Assembly (NCBI GenBank): GCA_902586025.1
Contig: CACIFV010000001.1
Location: 1-64,000 of the forward strand
Reading direction: 5' to 3'
Origin: an uncultured Pelagibacteraceae bacterium
GTDB taxonomy: Bacteria > Pseudomonadota > Alphaproteobacteria > Pelagibacterales > Pelagibacteraceae
Length of the DNA stretch: 64,000 nt
The notes beneath the pieces were generated by a model, which did not search any database, was not told where the DNA came from, and worked only from the letters and a program-made list of their open reading frames with translations. Position numbers and translations under genes: made by a program. Within the stretch, counting starts at the first letter, position 1, and each line of letters opens with the position of its first letter. Of this stretch, positions 18,911 through 24,874 are shown in pieces.

Positions 18911-19450
18911 TTAGGTTGTTGCAAATTCTTTAATTTTTTCAAAACTGAAGTGATCGGCTATATCTTTCTTGGCGTAGTATACCTCATCAACTGTGCCTTG
19001 TTCGTTTATTAAAACATCTGTAACAGCTATATCAAAATGACCTTTAATTTTTAAAGGAATATATCCCTTTAACATTGCAGGTATTATTTTATGAGACTTA
19101 AATAACATTGCAGATAATGTTTTCATCATTGATCTTTCAATTTCATATTTTTGAAAATATTTAAAATCTTCATCAGCTAATACAGTAAAAGGTAAATTTT
19201 TATGTTTTTTCATGTAAGACTTTAAATTATCAACTGGTGAATGAAATATTGCTACATGTGTAAAATTACTTCCCAGCTCGTTAAATCTTTTATTAATTTC
19301 GTTTAATCTAAGATTGCAAAAACTACATCCAGCTATTCTATAAAAAGTTAAAAGAACTTTTTTTCCGTGTGTTTCTGACAAATTAAATATAGACCCGTCA
19401 TCTCTTGGAAGTGTAATTTCCTCTAATTTATCTCCTTTAGAAATCTTCAT
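18911..19450 (-). CDS. Peroxiredoxin-like (AhpC/TSA) thioredoxin-fold protein
   Basis: A 179-residue thioredoxin-fold protein. FYRIAGCSFCNLRLNEI places a CxxC pair at Cys42/Cys45 where AhpC/TSA peroxiredoxins have their peroxidatic Cys; the ITLPRDDGSIFNLSE start and VLINEQGTVDEVYYAK end are typical. It is probably a peroxidase or thiol oxidoreductase. The start overlaps the zur stop by 4 nt, so the two are coupled; oxidative-stress genes are often kept near metal regulators. Confidence 0.75.
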   Translation of the reverse strand: MKISKGDKLEEITLPRDDGSIFNLSETHGKKVLLTFYRIAGCSFCNLRLNEINKRFNELGSNFTHVAIFHSPVDNLKSYMKKHKNLPFTVLADEDFKYFQKYEIERSMMKTLSAMLFKSHKIIPAMLKGYIPLKIKGHFDIAVTDVLINEQGTVDEVYYAKKDIADHFSFEKIKEFATT

Positions 19451-19842
19451 TTAATAGAGCATTTTTTACAAAGCCCAAAAAATTCAAGGTTATATTTATT
19501 AAATTTCATTCCTGTTTTTTCTTGAAAAGTTTTCAAATATTTTGATAATTTGTGATCACTTATTTCACTTACTTCCTCACAACTTTCACATATAGAAAAT
19601 GCTGTAGCCTTCGATATTTGGCAATTAGAATTTTTGCATGCAACAAAAGCATTTTTACTTTCAATTTTATGAATTTTACCAATTTCAACTAATTTATCCA
19701 GCGCTCTATACACTTGAAGTGGGGCTTTAATACCTTTTTTTTGGACGTTATGAAGAATTGAATAAGCTTTAATCGGTTCATTTACTTTTTCTATATAATC
19801 GAGAATAATTTTTTGGTTTTTTGAAAGTGTTTCTTTCTGCAT
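19447..19842 (-). CDS. zur: Zinc-responsive repressor Zur (Fur family)
   Basis: A 131-residue Fur-family regulator. The N-terminal winged helix contains LQVYRALDKLVEIGKIHKIES. The dimerisation domain has the structural zinc site Cys85-x2-Cys88 and Cys125-x2-Cys128. Two further Cys (69, 74) occur where Fur has His-rich ligands. Placement between znuB and a peroxiredoxin gene in a zinc-uptake operon identifies it as Zur rather than Fur or PerR. It should bind the palindrome between znuC and znuA, so the operon is self-regulated. Confidence 0.88.
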   Translation of the reverse strand: MQKETLSKNQKIILDYIEKVNEPIKAYSILHNVQKKGIKAPLQVYRALDKLVEIGKIHKIESKNAFVACKNSNCQISKATAFSICESCEEVSEISDHKLSKYLKTFQEKTGMKFNKYNLEFFGLCKKCSIK

Positions 19843-19865: not shown

Positions 19866-20669
19866 TTAATTTTTCAATTGAATGGTCTGTTTTATTTTAA
19901 ATAAAGAAATTATAAATAAGAACAAAGCCGCTGCAATTATCGATGGACCTGAAGGTGTATTAAATTCTAATGATGAAAATAGACCTATAAAAACTGATAA
20001 CAATCCTCCAATTATTGAAAAAACAACCATTTTTTTTGGATTATCAGAAAGATTTCTAGCCATAGCTGTTGGAATTATCAACATCCCTGTAATCAATAAA
20101 ACTCCAACTAGTTTTATAGAAATAGCTATTAGTGCAGCTAATAGGACTGTAAAGATTGCTTTAGCTTTATCAGGATTTAGTCCTTCAGCTTCAGCTAGCT
20201 CATAATTTACTGTTGAAGCAAATAATGGTTTCCAAATCAATTTTAAAACTATTAATATTAAAGCACCACCAAACCAAATTATAAATAAGTCCTTTTTATT
20301 AACTGCTAAAATATCTCCAAACAATAATCCCATTATATCAAATCTAATAAAGGTTAAAAATCCAATCACAACTAATCCAACTGCTAACGACGAGTGAGCT
20401 AACAGACCAAGTAAAGCATCGCTTGGAAGATTTGTTTTTCTTTGTAATTGTATTAAAATTAAAGCGATAGCAGACGAAATGAAAAATATTGAAACAGCAA
20501 TATTAAAATCCAATGAGTAAGCAATAGTAACACCTAACAAAGCTGAATGCGCAAGTGTATCTCCAAAATAAGATAACCTTCTCCAAACTACAAAACAACC
20601 AAGTGGGCCAGTAACAAATGCTATACCTATACCTGCAAATATTGCTCTTATAAAAAAATCATCAAACAT
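19866..20669 (-). CDS. znuB: Zinc ABC transporter permease ZnuB
   Basis: A 267-residue metal-type ABC permease with about eight helices. Family motifs are GPLGCFVVWRRLSYFGDTLAHS (split here as GPLGCFVVWRR and FGDTLAHSALLG) near the N-terminus and LLITGMLIIPTAMARNLSD near 190-210. It is one nucleotide downstream of znuC. It forms the channel that moves zinc delivered by ZnuA, powered by ZnuC. Confidence 0.93.
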   Translation of the reverse strand: MFDDFFIRAIFAGIGIAFVTGPLGCFVVWRRLSYFGDTLAHSALLGVTIAYSLDFNIAVSIFFISSAIALILIQLQRKTNLPSDALLGLLAHSSLAVGLVVIGFLTFIRFDIMGLLFGDILAVNKKDLFIIWFGGALILIVLKLIWKPLFASTVNYELAEAEGLNPDKAKAIFTVLLAALIAISIKLVGVLLITGMLIIPTAMARNLSDNPKKMVVFSIIGGLLSVFIGLFSSLEFNTPSGPSIIAAALFLFIISLFKIKQTIQLKN

Positions 20670-20670
20670 T

Positions 20671-21417
20671 TTAATTTTTTTTTATTTCTCCGTCACTTGA
20701 ATGTACATGATCGTGTTTATGTTCATAAATTGAGAGTGTTTGTGAAGCTTGCTCTCCAAACAAAGCTTTATATTCTTTATTTTTAGCAACATCCAATGGT
20801 GATCCTGAACAACATACATGTCCATTTAAACAAACAACATGATCTGTTGCACTCATTACAGTGTGTAAGTCATGAGATATTAATAAAATACCACAATTTA
20901 AATTTTCTGAAATTTTTTTGATCAATTCATACAAAGCTATCTCACCCGTAAAATCAACTCCTTGTACAGGTTCATCAAGTACTAATAATTCAGGTTTCTT
21001 TGAAATAGCTCTAGCTAATAAAACTCTTTGAAATTCACCACCTGACAAATTTCCTAAATTTTTATTCTTAAGATGATCTACCCCAGTTAATGTTAATGCT
21101 TCATCTATCAATTTGTCATTTAAATCATCTGTTAATAACATAAAATCTTTCACTCTTAGAGGAAGAGTCCAATCAATAGAAATTTTCTGTGGGACATATC
21201 CAATTTTATCTGTGAGTTTTTGTACTTCACCTTCAATATTTTTATGTAAGCCTAGTGCAATTTTAGCGGTAGTGCTTTTACCAGATCCATTTGGTCCTAT
21301 TAACGTAATAATCTTGCCTTTTTCAACCACAAGTGAAACACCTTTGACAAGCCATTTGTCATTTCGCTTTAGCCCAACATCTTTCAATTTTACTAAAATA
21401 TTATTTTCTATTCTCAT
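20671..21417 (-). CDS. znuC: Zinc ABC transporter ATPase ZnuC
   Basis: A 248-residue ABC ATPase: Walker A GPNGSGKST (~42-50), signature LSGGEFQRVLLARA, Walker B LLVLDEPVQGVD, and the H-loop LISHDLHTV. The C-terminal tail EHKHDHVHSSDGE is His-rich and may sense or bind zinc. It is the first gene of the minus-strand zinc operon. The Zur-like palindrome is 39 nt upstream. Confidence 0.94.
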   Translation of the reverse strand: MRIENNILVKLKDVGLKRNDKWLVKGVSLVVEKGKIITLIGPNGSGKSTTAKIALGLHKNIEGEVQKLTDKIGYVPQKISIDWTLPLRVKDFMLLTDDLNDKLIDEALTLTGVDHLKNKNLGNLSGGEFQRVLLARAISKKPELLVLDEPVQGVDFTGEIALYELIKKISENLNCGILLISHDLHTVMSATDHVVCLNGHVCCSGSPLDVAKNKEYKALFGEQASQTLSIYEHKHDHVHSSDGEIKKN

Positions 21418-21455: not shown

Positions 21456-21470
21456 TGTTATATTATAACA
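21456..21470. promoter_or_regulatory. Zur operator between znuC and znuA
   Basis: A perfect 15-bp inverted repeat TGTTATA-T-TATAACA, extended by AA before and AT after. This half-site is the one seen in alphaproteobacterial Zur boxes. It lies 39 nt from the znuC start and 21 nt from the znuA start, so one operator can repress both divergent transcripts. Confidence 0.8.
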
Positions 21471-21490: not shown

Positions 21491-22585
21491 ATGAAAAATT
21501 TAAAAAAAACATCTATAACACTTACTATAATATCATTTTTAACTTTATTTACACCAGCAAATGCTGACATTAAAGTTGTTACATCGATTAAACCAATACA
21601 CTCTTTAGCTAGCTATTTAATGGATGGTGTTGCTAAACCTGATTTAATAGTTGATGGATATGCTTCTCCACATGGCTTTCCAATGAAACCTTCACATGCA
21701 AAAATGTTACAAAATGCAGATATTGTATTTTGGGTAGGTGAAGACTTAGAAAATTTTTTAGAAAAACCTTTAGACTCAATTGCTGCAAAAGCAGAAAAAA
21801 TTGAGCTTATGGAAATAAAAGGTTTAGTTAAATTAAAATTTAGAGAAAGAAATATTTTTGATGATCATGACGATCATGGACACAAGAAAAAAGATGATCA
21901 TGATGACCACGACCATGACGACCATGCAAAAAAAGAAGATGGGCATAAAGAGGATGATCATGACGATCATGGACACAAGAAAAAAGATGATCATGATGAC
22001 CACGACCATGACGATCATGCAAAGAAAAAGGATGGACATGATGATCACGACGATCATGATGGACATGAAGGTCATCACCATGGTGAATTTGACCCGCACA
22101 TTTGGTTAGATCCAATTAATGCAAAAGTTATTTTATTTGAAATGTCTGAGCACTTAATTGAAAATGATCCATCCAATGAGTCAGCTTACAGAGCTAATTT
22201 AAGTAAGGCTTACAAAGATATTGATAAATTAATAAGTGATGTAACAGCTGAGCTTAACGAAAGTACAGCCTCTATTGTTTTTCATGATGCTTACCAATAT
22301 TTTGAAGAAAGATTTAAAGTTAATATATTAGGCGCTTTTACTGTAAATACAGATGTATTACCTGGAGCAGAACAATTAGCTGAAATAAGAGAGGTAATTG
22401 AACATGATAAAGTTGCTTGTGTGTTTTCAGAACCTCAATTTAATCCTAATATCATTAAAGCTGTTGCAAAAGATATGAATATTAAAACTGGTGTTGTTGA
22501 TCCATTAGGTGCAACATTAACTCCCGGAAAAGGTTTATATTTTGATTTAATAAAAAATATGTCAAAATCCTTTAAAGGGTGTTAA
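21491..22585 (+). CDS. znuA: Zinc ABC transporter substrate-binding protein ZnuA
   Basis: A 364-residue periplasmic zinc-binding protein with a signal peptide (~1-26, ending NADI). Zinc ligands are expected at the His of YASPHGFPMKPS, FDPHIWLDP, IVFHDAYQYF and the acidic EPQFNP region. Between the first two, residues ~124-197 form a very long His/Asp/Lys loop that ZnuA proteins use to gather zinc. The loop is unusually long because a 93-bp unit is duplicated. The protein starts 21 nt after the Zur-like operator and is followed 8 nt later by the CobW-family gene. Confidence 0.95.
   Translation: MKNLKKTSITLTIISFLTLFTPANADIKVVTSIKPIHSLASYLMDGVAKPDLIVDGYASPHGFPMKPSHAKMLQNADIVFWVGEDLENFLEKPLDSIAAKAEKIELMEIKGLVKLKFRERNIFDDHDDHGHKKKDDHDDHDHDDHAKKEDGHKEDDHDDHGHKKKDDHDDHDHDDHAKKKDGHDDHDDHDGHEGHHHGEFDPHIWLDPINAKVILFEMSEHLIENDPSNESAYRANLSKAYKDIDKLISDVTAELNESTASIVFHDAYQYFEERFKVNILGAFTVNTDVLPGAEQLAEIREVIEHDKVACVFSEPQFNPNIIKAVAKDMNIKTGVVDPLGATLTPGKGLYFDLIKNMSKSFKGC
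21860..22045 (+). repeat. 93-bp tandem duplication inside znuA
   Basis: Unit one is 21860-21952 and unit two 21953-22045, each 31 codons. The first 22 residues of the two units are identical (DDHDDHGHKKK then DDHDDHDHDDH) and only the last third differs by a few residues. DNA identity is very high, so the duplication is recent or kept uniform by recombination. It is a coding metal-binding loop, not a CRISPR or intergenic repeat. Confidence 0.9.
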
Positions 22586-22593
22586 TTTAATTA

Positions 22594-23568
22594 ATGGGAG
22601 AAACTAACAAACAAGTTCCAGTTACTGTTTTAACTGGCTTTTTAGGCGCTGGAAAAACTACTCTTTTAAATAGAATATTAACTGAGCAGCATGGAAAAAA
22701 ATATGCTGTGATAGTTAATGAGTTTGGTGAGCAGGGCATTGATAACGATTTAGTTGTCGATGCTGATGAAGAAGTATTTGAGATGAACAACGGTTGCATA
22801 TGTTGCACTGTAAGAGGTGATCTAATCCGTATTCTAAGTGGCCTCATGAAGCGTGCAGATAAACTTGATGCAATCATAGTAGAAACTACTGGATTAGCTG
22901 ATCCAGCTCCTGTTGCACAAACATTTTTTGTTGATCAAGATGTTGCGGATCGTACAAAATTAGATGCAATTGTTACTGTTGCTGATGCTGTTCACTTGAG
23001 TACACAATTATCAGATCATCATGAAGCAGAAGAACAAATTGCATTTGCTGATGTTGTATTATTAAACAAAATAGATCTTGTTGATGAAAGTGGATTAGAA
23101 GTTGTTAAAGAGAGAATAAAAAAAATTAATCCATTTGCAAAAATTATTCATACCACTAAATGTGGAGTATCTTTAAGTGAGATTTTAAATCTTGATGCTT
23201 TTAATTTAAAACGTATTTTAGATACTGAGCCTGATTTTTTAACATCAGATCACGATCATGAACATGATGATGATGTAACTAGCTTATCATTTGTTTCAGA
23301 TACTCCTTTAGATATGGAAAAGTTTCAGGATTGGTTTAGCAAGCTTTTACAAACAAAGGGACAAGATATATTAAGAACCAAAGGGATTCTCGATTTTACT
23401 GGAGAAAATGATAGATATGTTTTTCAAGGTGTGCATATGCTTATGGATGCCTCGCCGATGGGTAAATGGCCAGAAGGCAAAGAACGAAGCTCTCGACTAG
23501 TTTTTATTGGTCGAAATCTTGAGAGTATGAATTTGAAAGAAGGATTTGAAAATTGCAAATCGGCATGA
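22594..23568 (+). CDS. CobW/COG0523 G3E-family zinc metallochaperone GTPase
   Basis: A 324-residue G3E GTPase. Walker A is GFLGAGKT at 15-22, the metal-binding CICC at 68-71 sits in NNGCICCTVRGDL, Walker B is in VETTGLADPAP, and the guanine motif is NKID. A small His-rich stretch SDHDHEHDD lies near residue 225, before the C-terminal CobW domain. Being within a Zur-controlled unit behind znuA, it is probably a ZigA/ZNG1-type zinc chaperone that feeds key zinc enzymes in deficiency, not a cobalamin protein. Its last 4 nt overlap the WD40 gene. Confidence 0.88.
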   Translation: MGETNKQVPVTVLTGFLGAGKTTLLNRILTEQHGKKYAVIVNEFGEQGIDNDLVVDADEEVFEMNNGCICCTVRGDLIRILSGLMKRADKLDAIIVETTGLADPAPVAQTFFVDQDVADRTKLDAIVTVADAVHLSTQLSDHHEAEEQIAFADVVLLNKIDLVDESGLEVVKERIKKINPFAKIIHTTKCGVSLSEILNLDAFNLKRILDTEPDFLTSDHDHEHDDDVTSLSFVSDTPLDMEKFQDWFSKLLQTKGQDILRTKGILDFTGENDRYVFQGVHMLMDASPMGKWPEGKERSSRLVFIGRNLESMNLKEGFENCKSA

Positions 23569-24608
23569 AAGCTGATTCAAATAAGTTTCCAGAGTTAAAT
23601 AAAACCAAATTTGAAAATAGAGGAAAGGAGTTTAAGCTTAGAATTCCTGTTACTAATGCAATTACGATTGGGAATTCTGTAGCTGTTGGATTTGGAGATG
23701 GAACCGTAAGAATATTTCGTTCAGGACAAATTTCAGAGGTAATAAAAGCACATAGTGGTGTTGTTCTTAGTATTTCTAAAGATGGTGAAGATATTTTAAC
23801 TGGTGGCGATGATGGTAGATTTTTAAAAATTTCACTTGATGGAGAAATAAAAGAAATTGCAAACTTTGGTTCTCGATGGGTAGATCATGTTACTGCATAT
23901 AATGGTAGTTTGGTATGTACATCTGGTAATATTGTTTATCTATGGATGCCAAATAAAAAAGAACCAAAATTATTAGAACACGAGAGTACCATTGGTGGTG
24001 TAGCATTTGATTCAAAAGGAAGAAGACTAGCAGTGTCTCGTTATGGTGGAGTTACTCTTTGGAAAAAAGATTATAGTAATAAGTGGAGCTCATCCAATTT
24101 AATTTGGAAAGGCTCGCACAATAAAGTCATTTTTAGCACTGATGATCGATTTTTGGTTACATCTATGCAAGAAAACCAACTTCATTTTTGGCGCTTAAAA
24201 GATAAAACAGATTCTTTCATGTCTGGCTATGGAGCAAAAGTCAAAAGTTTTGCTTTTGTTTATGACTCAAAATTTTTAGTAACATCCGGTTCAAATGATG
24301 CAATTTGTTGGCCGTTTGATGGAAATGGACCAGAAGGTCGTAAACCAATTTGCCTTCCTTATGTTGGGAATAAACTTGTAACCTTTGTTGAGCCATTCCC
24401 AAATGAAAATGCTATTTTTACTGGATTAAGTGATGGTTCGGTTTTTTTATCAGAAATTGAAAAATCAACTAATACAATCATCATTCGTAGTTTTACTCAG
24501 TCAGAGGTAACAGCAATTGCAGTGACCGAAGATTGTTCAAGTATATTAATCGGTGATATCGGAGGAAATATTTTGTGGACATCTATATGGGATGAAGAGG
24601 AAAAATAA
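23565..24608 (+). CDS. WD40-repeat protein of the zinc locus
   Basis: A 347-residue beta-propeller-like protein with roughly seven WD40-type blades, for example VAVGFGDGTVRIF, DILTGGDDGRFLKI, VVGG/RLAVSRYGGVTLW, FLVTSMQENQLHFW and ILIGDIGGNILW. No signal peptide, so cytoplasmic. The start is ATG 23565, overlapping the cobW stop (ATGA); a TTG four codons upstream is less likely. WD40 proteins are scaffolds. Coupling to the CobW GTPase suggests the two proteins interact or act together in zinc delivery; I know of no proven function for bacterial proteins in this position. Confidence 0.82.
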   Translation: MKADSNKFPELNKTKFENRGKEFKLRIPVTNAITIGNSVAVGFGDGTVRIFRSGQISEVIKAHSGVVLSISKDGEDILTGGDDGRFLKISLDGEIKEIANFGSRWVDHVTAYNGSLVCTSGNIVYLWMPNKKEPKLLEHESTIGGVAFDSKGRRLAVSRYGGVTLWKKDYSNKWSSSNLIWKGSHNKVIFSTDDRFLVTSMQENQLHFWRLKDKTDSFMSGYGAKVKSFAFVYDSKFLVTSGSNDAICWPFDGNGPEGRKPICLPYVGNKLVTFVEPFPNENAIFTGLSDGSVFLSEIEKSTNTIIIRSFTQSEVTAIAVTEDCSSILIGDIGGNILWTSIWDEEEK

Positions 24609-24610
24609 AT

Positions 24611-24874
24611 ATGTTCAATAAAAAAAAACCAAATGTAGAAAAAATAAGAAATTTAAAAAAAATATTTTTAAAAGAAAAAGATATTCCCGAAACATCAATT
24701 TTAAGCATTGCAGAATTAAGCTGCCATGAACCTAATTGTCCTCCTATTGAGACAATCATAACTGAAAGAAAAATCGATGGAAAAATAAGAAATTGGCGTA
24801 TTGGAAAACCAATTAATGATATTTTAGAAATAGATATTGTTCAATTGAGTAACTCTCTTAACCACTCTCATTAA
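24611..24874 (+). CDS. Small CHEPNCPP-motif protein, function unknown
   Basis: An 87-residue protein, last of the znuA-cobW-WD40 unit, 2 nt after the WD40 gene. The N-terminal third is basic. The core ELSCHEPNCPPIETII holds Cys38, His39 and Cys43, which could bind metal, and the chain ends NHSH. I recognise the motif as conserved in short proteins of unknown function, but cannot name a family. Its context suggests a zinc-deficiency role. Confidence 0.65.
   Translation: MFNKKKPNVEKIRNLKKIFLKEKDIPETSILSIAELSCHEPNCPPIETIITERKIDGKIRNWRIGKPINDILEIDIVQLSNSLNHSH

Follow-up and report, generated by a model that had tools for sequence, protein, structure and literature searches.

The window examined here is a 64,000-nucleotide stretch from the genome of an uncultured SAR11 bacterium of the Pelagibacteraceae (contig CACIFV010000001.1, positions 1–64,000), in which a zinc-uptake operon reads znuA, cobW, wd40 and small on the forward strand, the last three genes encoding a COG0523 GTPase, a WD40 propeller and an 87-residue protein of an unnamed C-x4-C family. 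An earlier note on this DNA had described the three as tightly coupled behind znuA, and open reading frames, order and spacing bear this out: cobW begins 8 bp after the znuA stop, cobW and wd40 share a 4-bp ATGA overlap, and small follows wd40 after 2 bp (the wd40 product being counted from an ATG, with an alternative 351-residue frame starting at an upstream TTG). The trio is a conserved unit of the operon and the COG0523 motifs of its GTPase are intact. What is new concerns the protein of 87 residues, a repeated companion of COG0523 GTPases in other bacteria. Purifying selection acts on all three genes, with median pairwise ratios of nonsynonymous to synonymous change of 0.032 for cobW (79 sequences), 0.137 for wd40 (81) and 0.195 for small (77). 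The closest named loci, with 98–100% identity of the small protein, belong to uncultured Pelagibacteraceae.

Table 1. Features of the locus, in window coordinates.
Feature	Position	Strand	Description	Pfam match
cobW	22594..23568	+	COG0523 (G3E) GTPase with CobW_C domain, 324 residues	PF02492 205.9 bits, PF07683 91 bits
Walker A GFLGAGKTT of cobW	22636..22662	+	residues 15–23	
CxCC metal motif CICC of cobW	22795..22806	+	residues 68–71	
wd40	23565..24608	+	cytosolic-type WD40 propeller, 347 residues	
small	24611..24874	+	87-residue protein, unnamed C-x4-C family	
C-x4-C motif CHEPNC of small	24722..24739	+	residues 38–43	
znuA	21491..22585	+	first gene of operon; zinc-binding protein of ATP-binding cassette (ABC) importer; His/Asp-rich loop	PF01297 191.1 bits
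Zur-type palindrome TGTTATATTATAACA	21456..21470	.	between znuC and znuA	
znuC	20671..21417	-	zinc ABC transporter ATPase	PF00005 90.8 bits
znuB	19866..20669	-	zinc ABC transporter permease	PF00950 233.6 bits
zur	19447..19842	-	regulator of the Fur family, putatively Zur from its top-scoring model and its neighbours	

Divergent from znuA lie znuC, znuB, the Fur-family regulator gene and a peroxiredoxin-like gene. The znuA product passes the NCBIfam ZnuA model (272.9 bits, cut-off 268), and the regulator passes PF01475 (36.9 bits, cut-off 23.1) and has the NCBIfam Zur model as its top match, yet with 72 bits against a cut-off of 167. As an observation in its own right, the His/Asp-rich loop of ZnuA (window 21860–22080) consists of near-identical repeats, with 22 His within residues 111–200.

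The three products and the putative Zur operator

The cobW product belongs to the COG0523 (CobW/G3E) family, with both PF02492 and CobW_C above cut-off and Walker A, CxCC and NKxD (NKID, residues 158–161) all present, along with a short His stretch, HDHEH, at residues 220–224. It is the sole PF02492 match in the source genome, which is about 83% complete, and CICC is invariant across the 16 rows of its alignment. Its scores fall below the thresholds of the named NCBIfam models, the best being the YjiA-type GTPase (NF008578; 244.6 bits, under 361), with 206.1 bits on CobW of cobalamin synthesis (TIGR02475; under 332.1) and 198.5 bits on the ZigA equivalog (NF038288; threshold 600). Judged by neighbourhood alone, that is by clustering with WD40 and znuABC genes and by the Zur-type palindrome, it fits subfamily 5 of Haas et al. 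(2009).

The wd40 product qualifies as a WD40 propeller by repeats above cut-off (PF00400, 45.8 bits, cut-off 27) and by the propeller fold of its predicted structure (predicted local distance difference test score, pLDDT, 85), in which eight blades can be counted from the predicted strands. The model compares with solved WD40 propellers at Z 31–36 (TBLR1, Rsa4 and ODA16 at 33–36; the eight-bladed design Tako8 at 32). W209, W249, G255-P256, G258 and P261, among others, are kept in at least 40 of the 43 rows of an alignment that holds one G283 gene twice and includes the doubtful locus L153 (G and L numbers denote genomes and loci). That Caballeronia locus was rejected as a relative, lacking the GPxGxxP signature and any annotated GTPase gene. 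A PF00400 survey of SAR11 found the domain in none of 60 genomes, a result to be read with the weakness of a single-repeat model that missed the WD40 gene of the window too. Several features count against the propeller itself carrying zinc: its N-terminus does not look like a leader on a rough hydropathy scale (1.23, where ZnuA has 1.81), no Cys is conserved in 90% of the 43 rows, and of the three His kept in 90% of them, one (His207) is replaced by Arg in part of the SAR11 rows while His63 and His185 are presumably ordinary WD40 repeat residues.

In the small protein, all 17 diverse family rows keep T48 and both Cys of the C-x4-C motif, and E35, P41, P44 and E47 are nearly invariant. The window member carries CHEPNCPP, which the earlier note had taken for a Cys/His motif able to hold metal; the motif is borne out for its Cys pair, by invariance, whereas the His, present in 9 of the 17 rows, is ruled out as a required residue. 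None of the 17 proteins has a significant match in Pfam or NCBIfam (best E 0.025 and 0.057 respectively); the single protein has no match in the PDB up to E 10, and the profile reaches at best E 0.27. The predicted structure is alpha-beta-beta-beta-alpha (pLDDT 81), and a Foldseek search with it returned no match at E <= 0.001. Annotation in the plasmid records that were opened, where there is any, reads 'hypothetical protein' or 'nitrate reductase', the latter (L142 5992–6279 and L143 5992–6279) apparently a misannotation. In open-access full texts, supplements being out of reach, no description of the family was found.

A perfect TGTTATANTATAACA, a pattern picked after the window had been seen, occurs once in the 64 kb, at position 21456, and 20 shuffles gave none with zero or one mismatch. 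Among SAR11 loci with divergent znuC and znuA, the best site has no mismatch in 28/71 and one mismatch in 43/71. By comparison, when 1600 stretches of 170 bp were drawn at random from these loci, 18 held a site with at most one mismatch, and the real site may fall within some of the stretches drawn. The palindrome resembles Zur sites predicted in Caulobacter, such as GATGTTATATCATAACAAT (PMC4176598). Palindrome and operon layout together point to probable control of the trio by Zur in SAR11.

Occurrence of the trio and of its parts

Whether the trio recurs in other genomes could be answered first within SAR11. Among the best 80 of 118 relatives from a contig scan, picked by their small gene and with a few matches cut by contig ends, cobW, wd40 and small stand in this order in all 80 loci, with a znuA match upstream in 77, so that the unit recurs as the earlier note would have it. 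The outer neighbours dsbA, mdh, prx and xth shift position among these loci. One SAR11 contig (L019) has mdh and xth, and no znuA, upstream of a partial cobW match, possibly through rearrangement or an assembly break. In a sample of 118 genomes of the family, incomplete ones counted, wd40 and small were found in the identical four, cobW in these four plus one, and znuA in 66, all four trio genomes among them. Since znuA is so much commoner, the trio is an optional addition that some znuA operons carry, and znuA itself is patchy, having been reported in 50% of SAR11 genomes in the accessible part of Hogle et al. (2016; PMC4771312). Some streamlined SAR11 cells thus bear the cost of a zinc-handling module beyond ZnuABC.

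Outside SAR11, a WD40 profile (E <= 1e-40) matched at 43 places, spread over 41 of the 289 Alphaproteobacteria searched. At the best 30 places, counting the window, cobW lies upstream within about 750 bp in 26, one of the other four being at a contig end, and a small gene lies behind WD40 in seven. A profile of the small protein (E <= 0.01) had matches in 10 genomes from a sample of 289 Alphaproteobacteria and in 15 from a sample of 299 Pseudomonadota, two samples that overlap. Chance matches were dropped before counting: G004, with two internal stops; a second match in G161 (E 0.0058, one stop); and G435 (E 0.0066, one stop). The 25 small-gene loci then left, nine of them rows of the query alignment and 16 not, comprise seven with cobW-wd40-small (G000, G161, G247, G148, G163, G189, G676), eight with cobW-small and no WD40 gene (G283, G528, G652, G484, G463, G445, G599 and a second copy in G148, C117), five with wd40-small, all from one family (G283, G528, G652, G551, G536), two with a divergent cobW about 1.2 kb from small (G104, G210), and three with neither partner near (G239, G480, G583). 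From this split, each pair of genes is found without the third nearby. The 16 loci outside the query alignment divide into one trio, seven cobW-small, four wd40-small, two divergent cobW and two with neither. In G239, small-type sequence forms only the C-terminal part of a 341-residue frame, which we read as an internal start rather than a fusion.

Three genomes (G283, G528, G652) have a separate GTPase-small pair elsewhere, besides their WD40-small pair. For the WD40-small pairs of L179–L183, and of L146 from Methylobacterium bullatum, a search of the flanks gave no GTPase match, and at two loci the genes upstream of such GTPase-free pairs show no zinc link. A DUF1826 gene recurs in the zinc loci L139, L151, L091 and L093, adjoining a further COG0523 GTPase gene in L139, L091 and L093, and is possibly another unnamed zinc-starvation gene.

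A tblastn search of plasmids with the small protein gave 18 records, of which 11 were examined. The freshwater Gemmobacter aquarius plasmid carries a regulator gene, importer genes and the GTPase, WD40 and small genes, and pair or trio occurs in many Alphaproteobacteria; the trio is therefore no speciality of low-zinc seawater, for which it had been proposed to serve. In plasmids of Agrobacterium rubi, Sinorhizobium numidicum, Phyllobacterium zundukense, Mesorhizobium huakuii, Shinella sp. and Sinorhizobium chiapasense, small stands directly behind the GTPase gene with no WD40 gene, the two genes overlapping by 4 bp in four of these six rhizobial plasmids. The pair is adjoined by azt genes in five of the six, A. 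rubi excepted, where its neighbours are a gene of the Fur family and two further GTPase genes. Methylobacterium bullatum has wd40-small. The Calothrix plasmid holds a cyanobacterial small-family gene (L144 5947–6213) near smtB and a cation-transporting ATPase gene, and no GTPase gene. On Sinorhizobium meliloti pSymB, a creatininase-family gene, a GTPase gene and a WD40 gene lie together, which may fit the creatinase neighbours mentioned by Haas et al. (2009).

The GTPases that precede a small gene span at least three COG0523 groups, sitting in three separate places in a tree of 55 COG0523 proteins, bacterial rows only: a large WD40-linked group (support 96/79) that includes the WD40-less members from Phyllobacterium, G463, G445 and G599; a Shinella/Agrobacterium/Sinorhizobium group (100/99); and a group of G283, G528, G652 and G484 (100/100). 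The G484 GTPase, with which the other three of its group cluster, scores 596 bits on the ZigA model, just short of 600. Because a number of the deep branches are long or open and a long-branch-join warning was raised, only the separation of the groups is used here.

Possible roles of the small protein and its partners

Gene order, tight spacing, a Zur-type palindrome, conservation, co-occurrence and the recurring place of small next to GTPase genes of several groups are what the data show. Taken as a whole, the explanation that we find probable, with considerable reserve, is that the GTPase is a metallochaperone under Zur control, with the propeller for an adaptor and the small protein for a partner. 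The trio would form the tail of a Zur-repressed znuA operon, and a fall in zinc would take Zur off the palindrome, importer and trio then being made together. The cobW product would hold zinc at CxCC and spend GTP on handing it to client proteins; the eight-bladed WD40 protein would be an adaptor gripping the GTPase and either a client or the small protein; and the latter would be a dedicated COG0523 GTPase partner that need not act through WD40, its invariant Cys pair most likely helping to pass zinc on or to dock at the metal site. Binding, GTP-driven transfer and the existence of clients are proposed by analogy with the known COG0523 proteins ZNG1 and ZagA, and the small protein is likewise predicted to enter a complex and to bind metal.

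Several observations weigh against this account. Seven WD40 loci in 30 with a small gene mean that most GTPase-WD40 pairs do without it, and the five wd40-small pairs have no GTPase gene within 3.4–4.3 kb upstream. The divergent cobW of G104 and G210 is not adjacent to small, a zinc-dehydrogenase gene lying between them in G210. The C117 copy in G148 keeps a WD40 remnant before its small frame (an N-terminal piece at about 1071–1409 of L136; also L093), as if WD40 had been lost from a duplicated trio, and is therefore a deletion derivative rather than an independent cobW-small case; more broadly, the small-gene loci are phylogenetically non-independent. Because three of the 11 plasmid records (Calothrix sp., Rhizobium sp. 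WYJ-E13 and Sinorhizobium terangae), like three of the 25 loci, have neither partner, part of the family does something else. Lastly, Paracoccus Zur sites, as given in the accessible part of PMC5387054, are less similar to the window palindrome than the Caulobacter ones.

A broader proposal, which we advance only tentatively, is that C-x4-C proteins are a general partner of COG0523 zinc-starvation GTPases of several subfamilies, which would require them as zinc relay or activator, with WD40 an optional adaptor also able to work together with just the small protein.

Against the main account stands the unlikely alternative that GTPase and WD40 are the working pair and that small is merely co-regulated, coming last in the operon because Zur loci gather such genes. 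The scarcity of small among WD40 loci, its occurrence away from GTPase and WD40 genes and its faster evolution than cobW and wd40 are what this would predict; on the other side, the gene immediately before small is a COG0523 gene in at least three groups of the tree, with the 4-bp overlaps of the rhizobial plasmids, and the link of small with the GTPase persists where WD40 is missing and where the importers are azt rather than znu. So strong a preference for one neighbour is unexpected from plain co-regulation.

It is improbable that the GTPase loop, the His-rich loop of ZnuA and the small protein buffer zinc rather than deliver it. ZrpX, a COG0523 protein of Caulobacter, has been suggested to act as a zinc reserve (PMC4176598, in its available part), but storage alone needs neither the nucleotide-binding nor the CxCC motifs, which are kept in a GTPase that is the most constrained of the three products, and it offers no clear part for a WD40 propeller.

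The small protein might act on the ribosome, recruited by the GTPase under zinc starvation in the way that MPY, a hibernation factor, is recruited by the mycobacterial COG0523 protein Mrf, although we give this very little credence. In the VIA comparison, the top row for the small-protein model is the hibernation factor pY (Z 4.6 over 79 residues, root-mean-square deviation 3.8), with MPY and RafH at Z 4.2–4.5; values of Z below 8 may reflect a common arrangement only, and the unrelated VtrA/VtrC (Z 4.3) and gyrase (Z 4.2) tie with them. The window GTPase does match the NCBI model 'ribosome hibernation factor-recruiting GTPase MRF' at E 2e-10, and two ZigA-type GTPases match it better (E about 1e-50), one of them, from G484, preceding a small gene; the window protein, however, reaches 40 bits where the cut-off is 375. 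Hibernation factors are not known to have a C-x4-C pair.

That the propeller itself carries zinc, as periplasmic AztD does, we consider least credible of all: AztD, too, has eight blades and hands on zinc, and a link with CobW genes is frequent according to the accessible part of PMC6689063, but beyond the residue and N-terminal evidence above, the window WD40 protein has no match to the AztD model at E <= 1, where a true AztD scores 414.7 bits.

Relation to known COG0523 systems

The module as a whole had been put forward as undescribed, a claim that falls because Haas et al. in 2009 (PMC2770081) reported, as subfamily 5, COG0523 genes that cluster with znuABC and WD40 genes, in several cases together with a predicted Zur site. 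Those clusters share COG0523, WD40 and znuABC with the window, whereas the accessible parts of that paper mention neither the small C-x4-C protein nor SAR11. Recognizing the small family would give an identity to genes now labelled 'hypothetical' or 'nitrate reductase'.

Among other systems, Paracoccus denitrificans pden1338-1340, which rise 13.2-, 10.6- and 8.6-fold without zinc according to the part of PMC5387054 available, are alike in having a COG0523 gene that is preceded in function by a Zur site and followed by two hypothetical genes, and differ in the dipeptide/nickel-type ABC transporter that follows; they may contain the same genes under zinc control. The available part of PMC6103462 holds nothing on a cobW-wd40-small trio. 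Loci with aztABCD and COG0523 genes resemble the window as zinc importer loci holding GTPases, but their AztD is a periplasmic zinc-carrying propeller, whereas the WD40 protein of the window is of cytosolic type and not an AztD. ZigA, a zinc metallochaperone, is likewise a COG0523 GTPase of zinc starvation, on whose model the window protein scores far lower than its threshold. In E. coli K-12 (L197 3910–5080), the small gene yjiX (PF04328), of another small-protein family, lies beside the COG0523 gene yjiA, a possible parallel.

Clients have been described for ZNG1, which acts on METAP1, and ZagA, which acts on FolE (PMC13339975, in the part available). The small protein, its gene accompanying several GTPase groups in zinc loci, provides a handle on how bacterial COG0523 GTPases choose clients and load them with zinc. 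Like ZNG1, a eukaryotic zinc transferase, the window GTPase is a COG0523 protein; Haas et al. (2009; PMC2770081) place the human and most eukaryotic members in subfamily 5.

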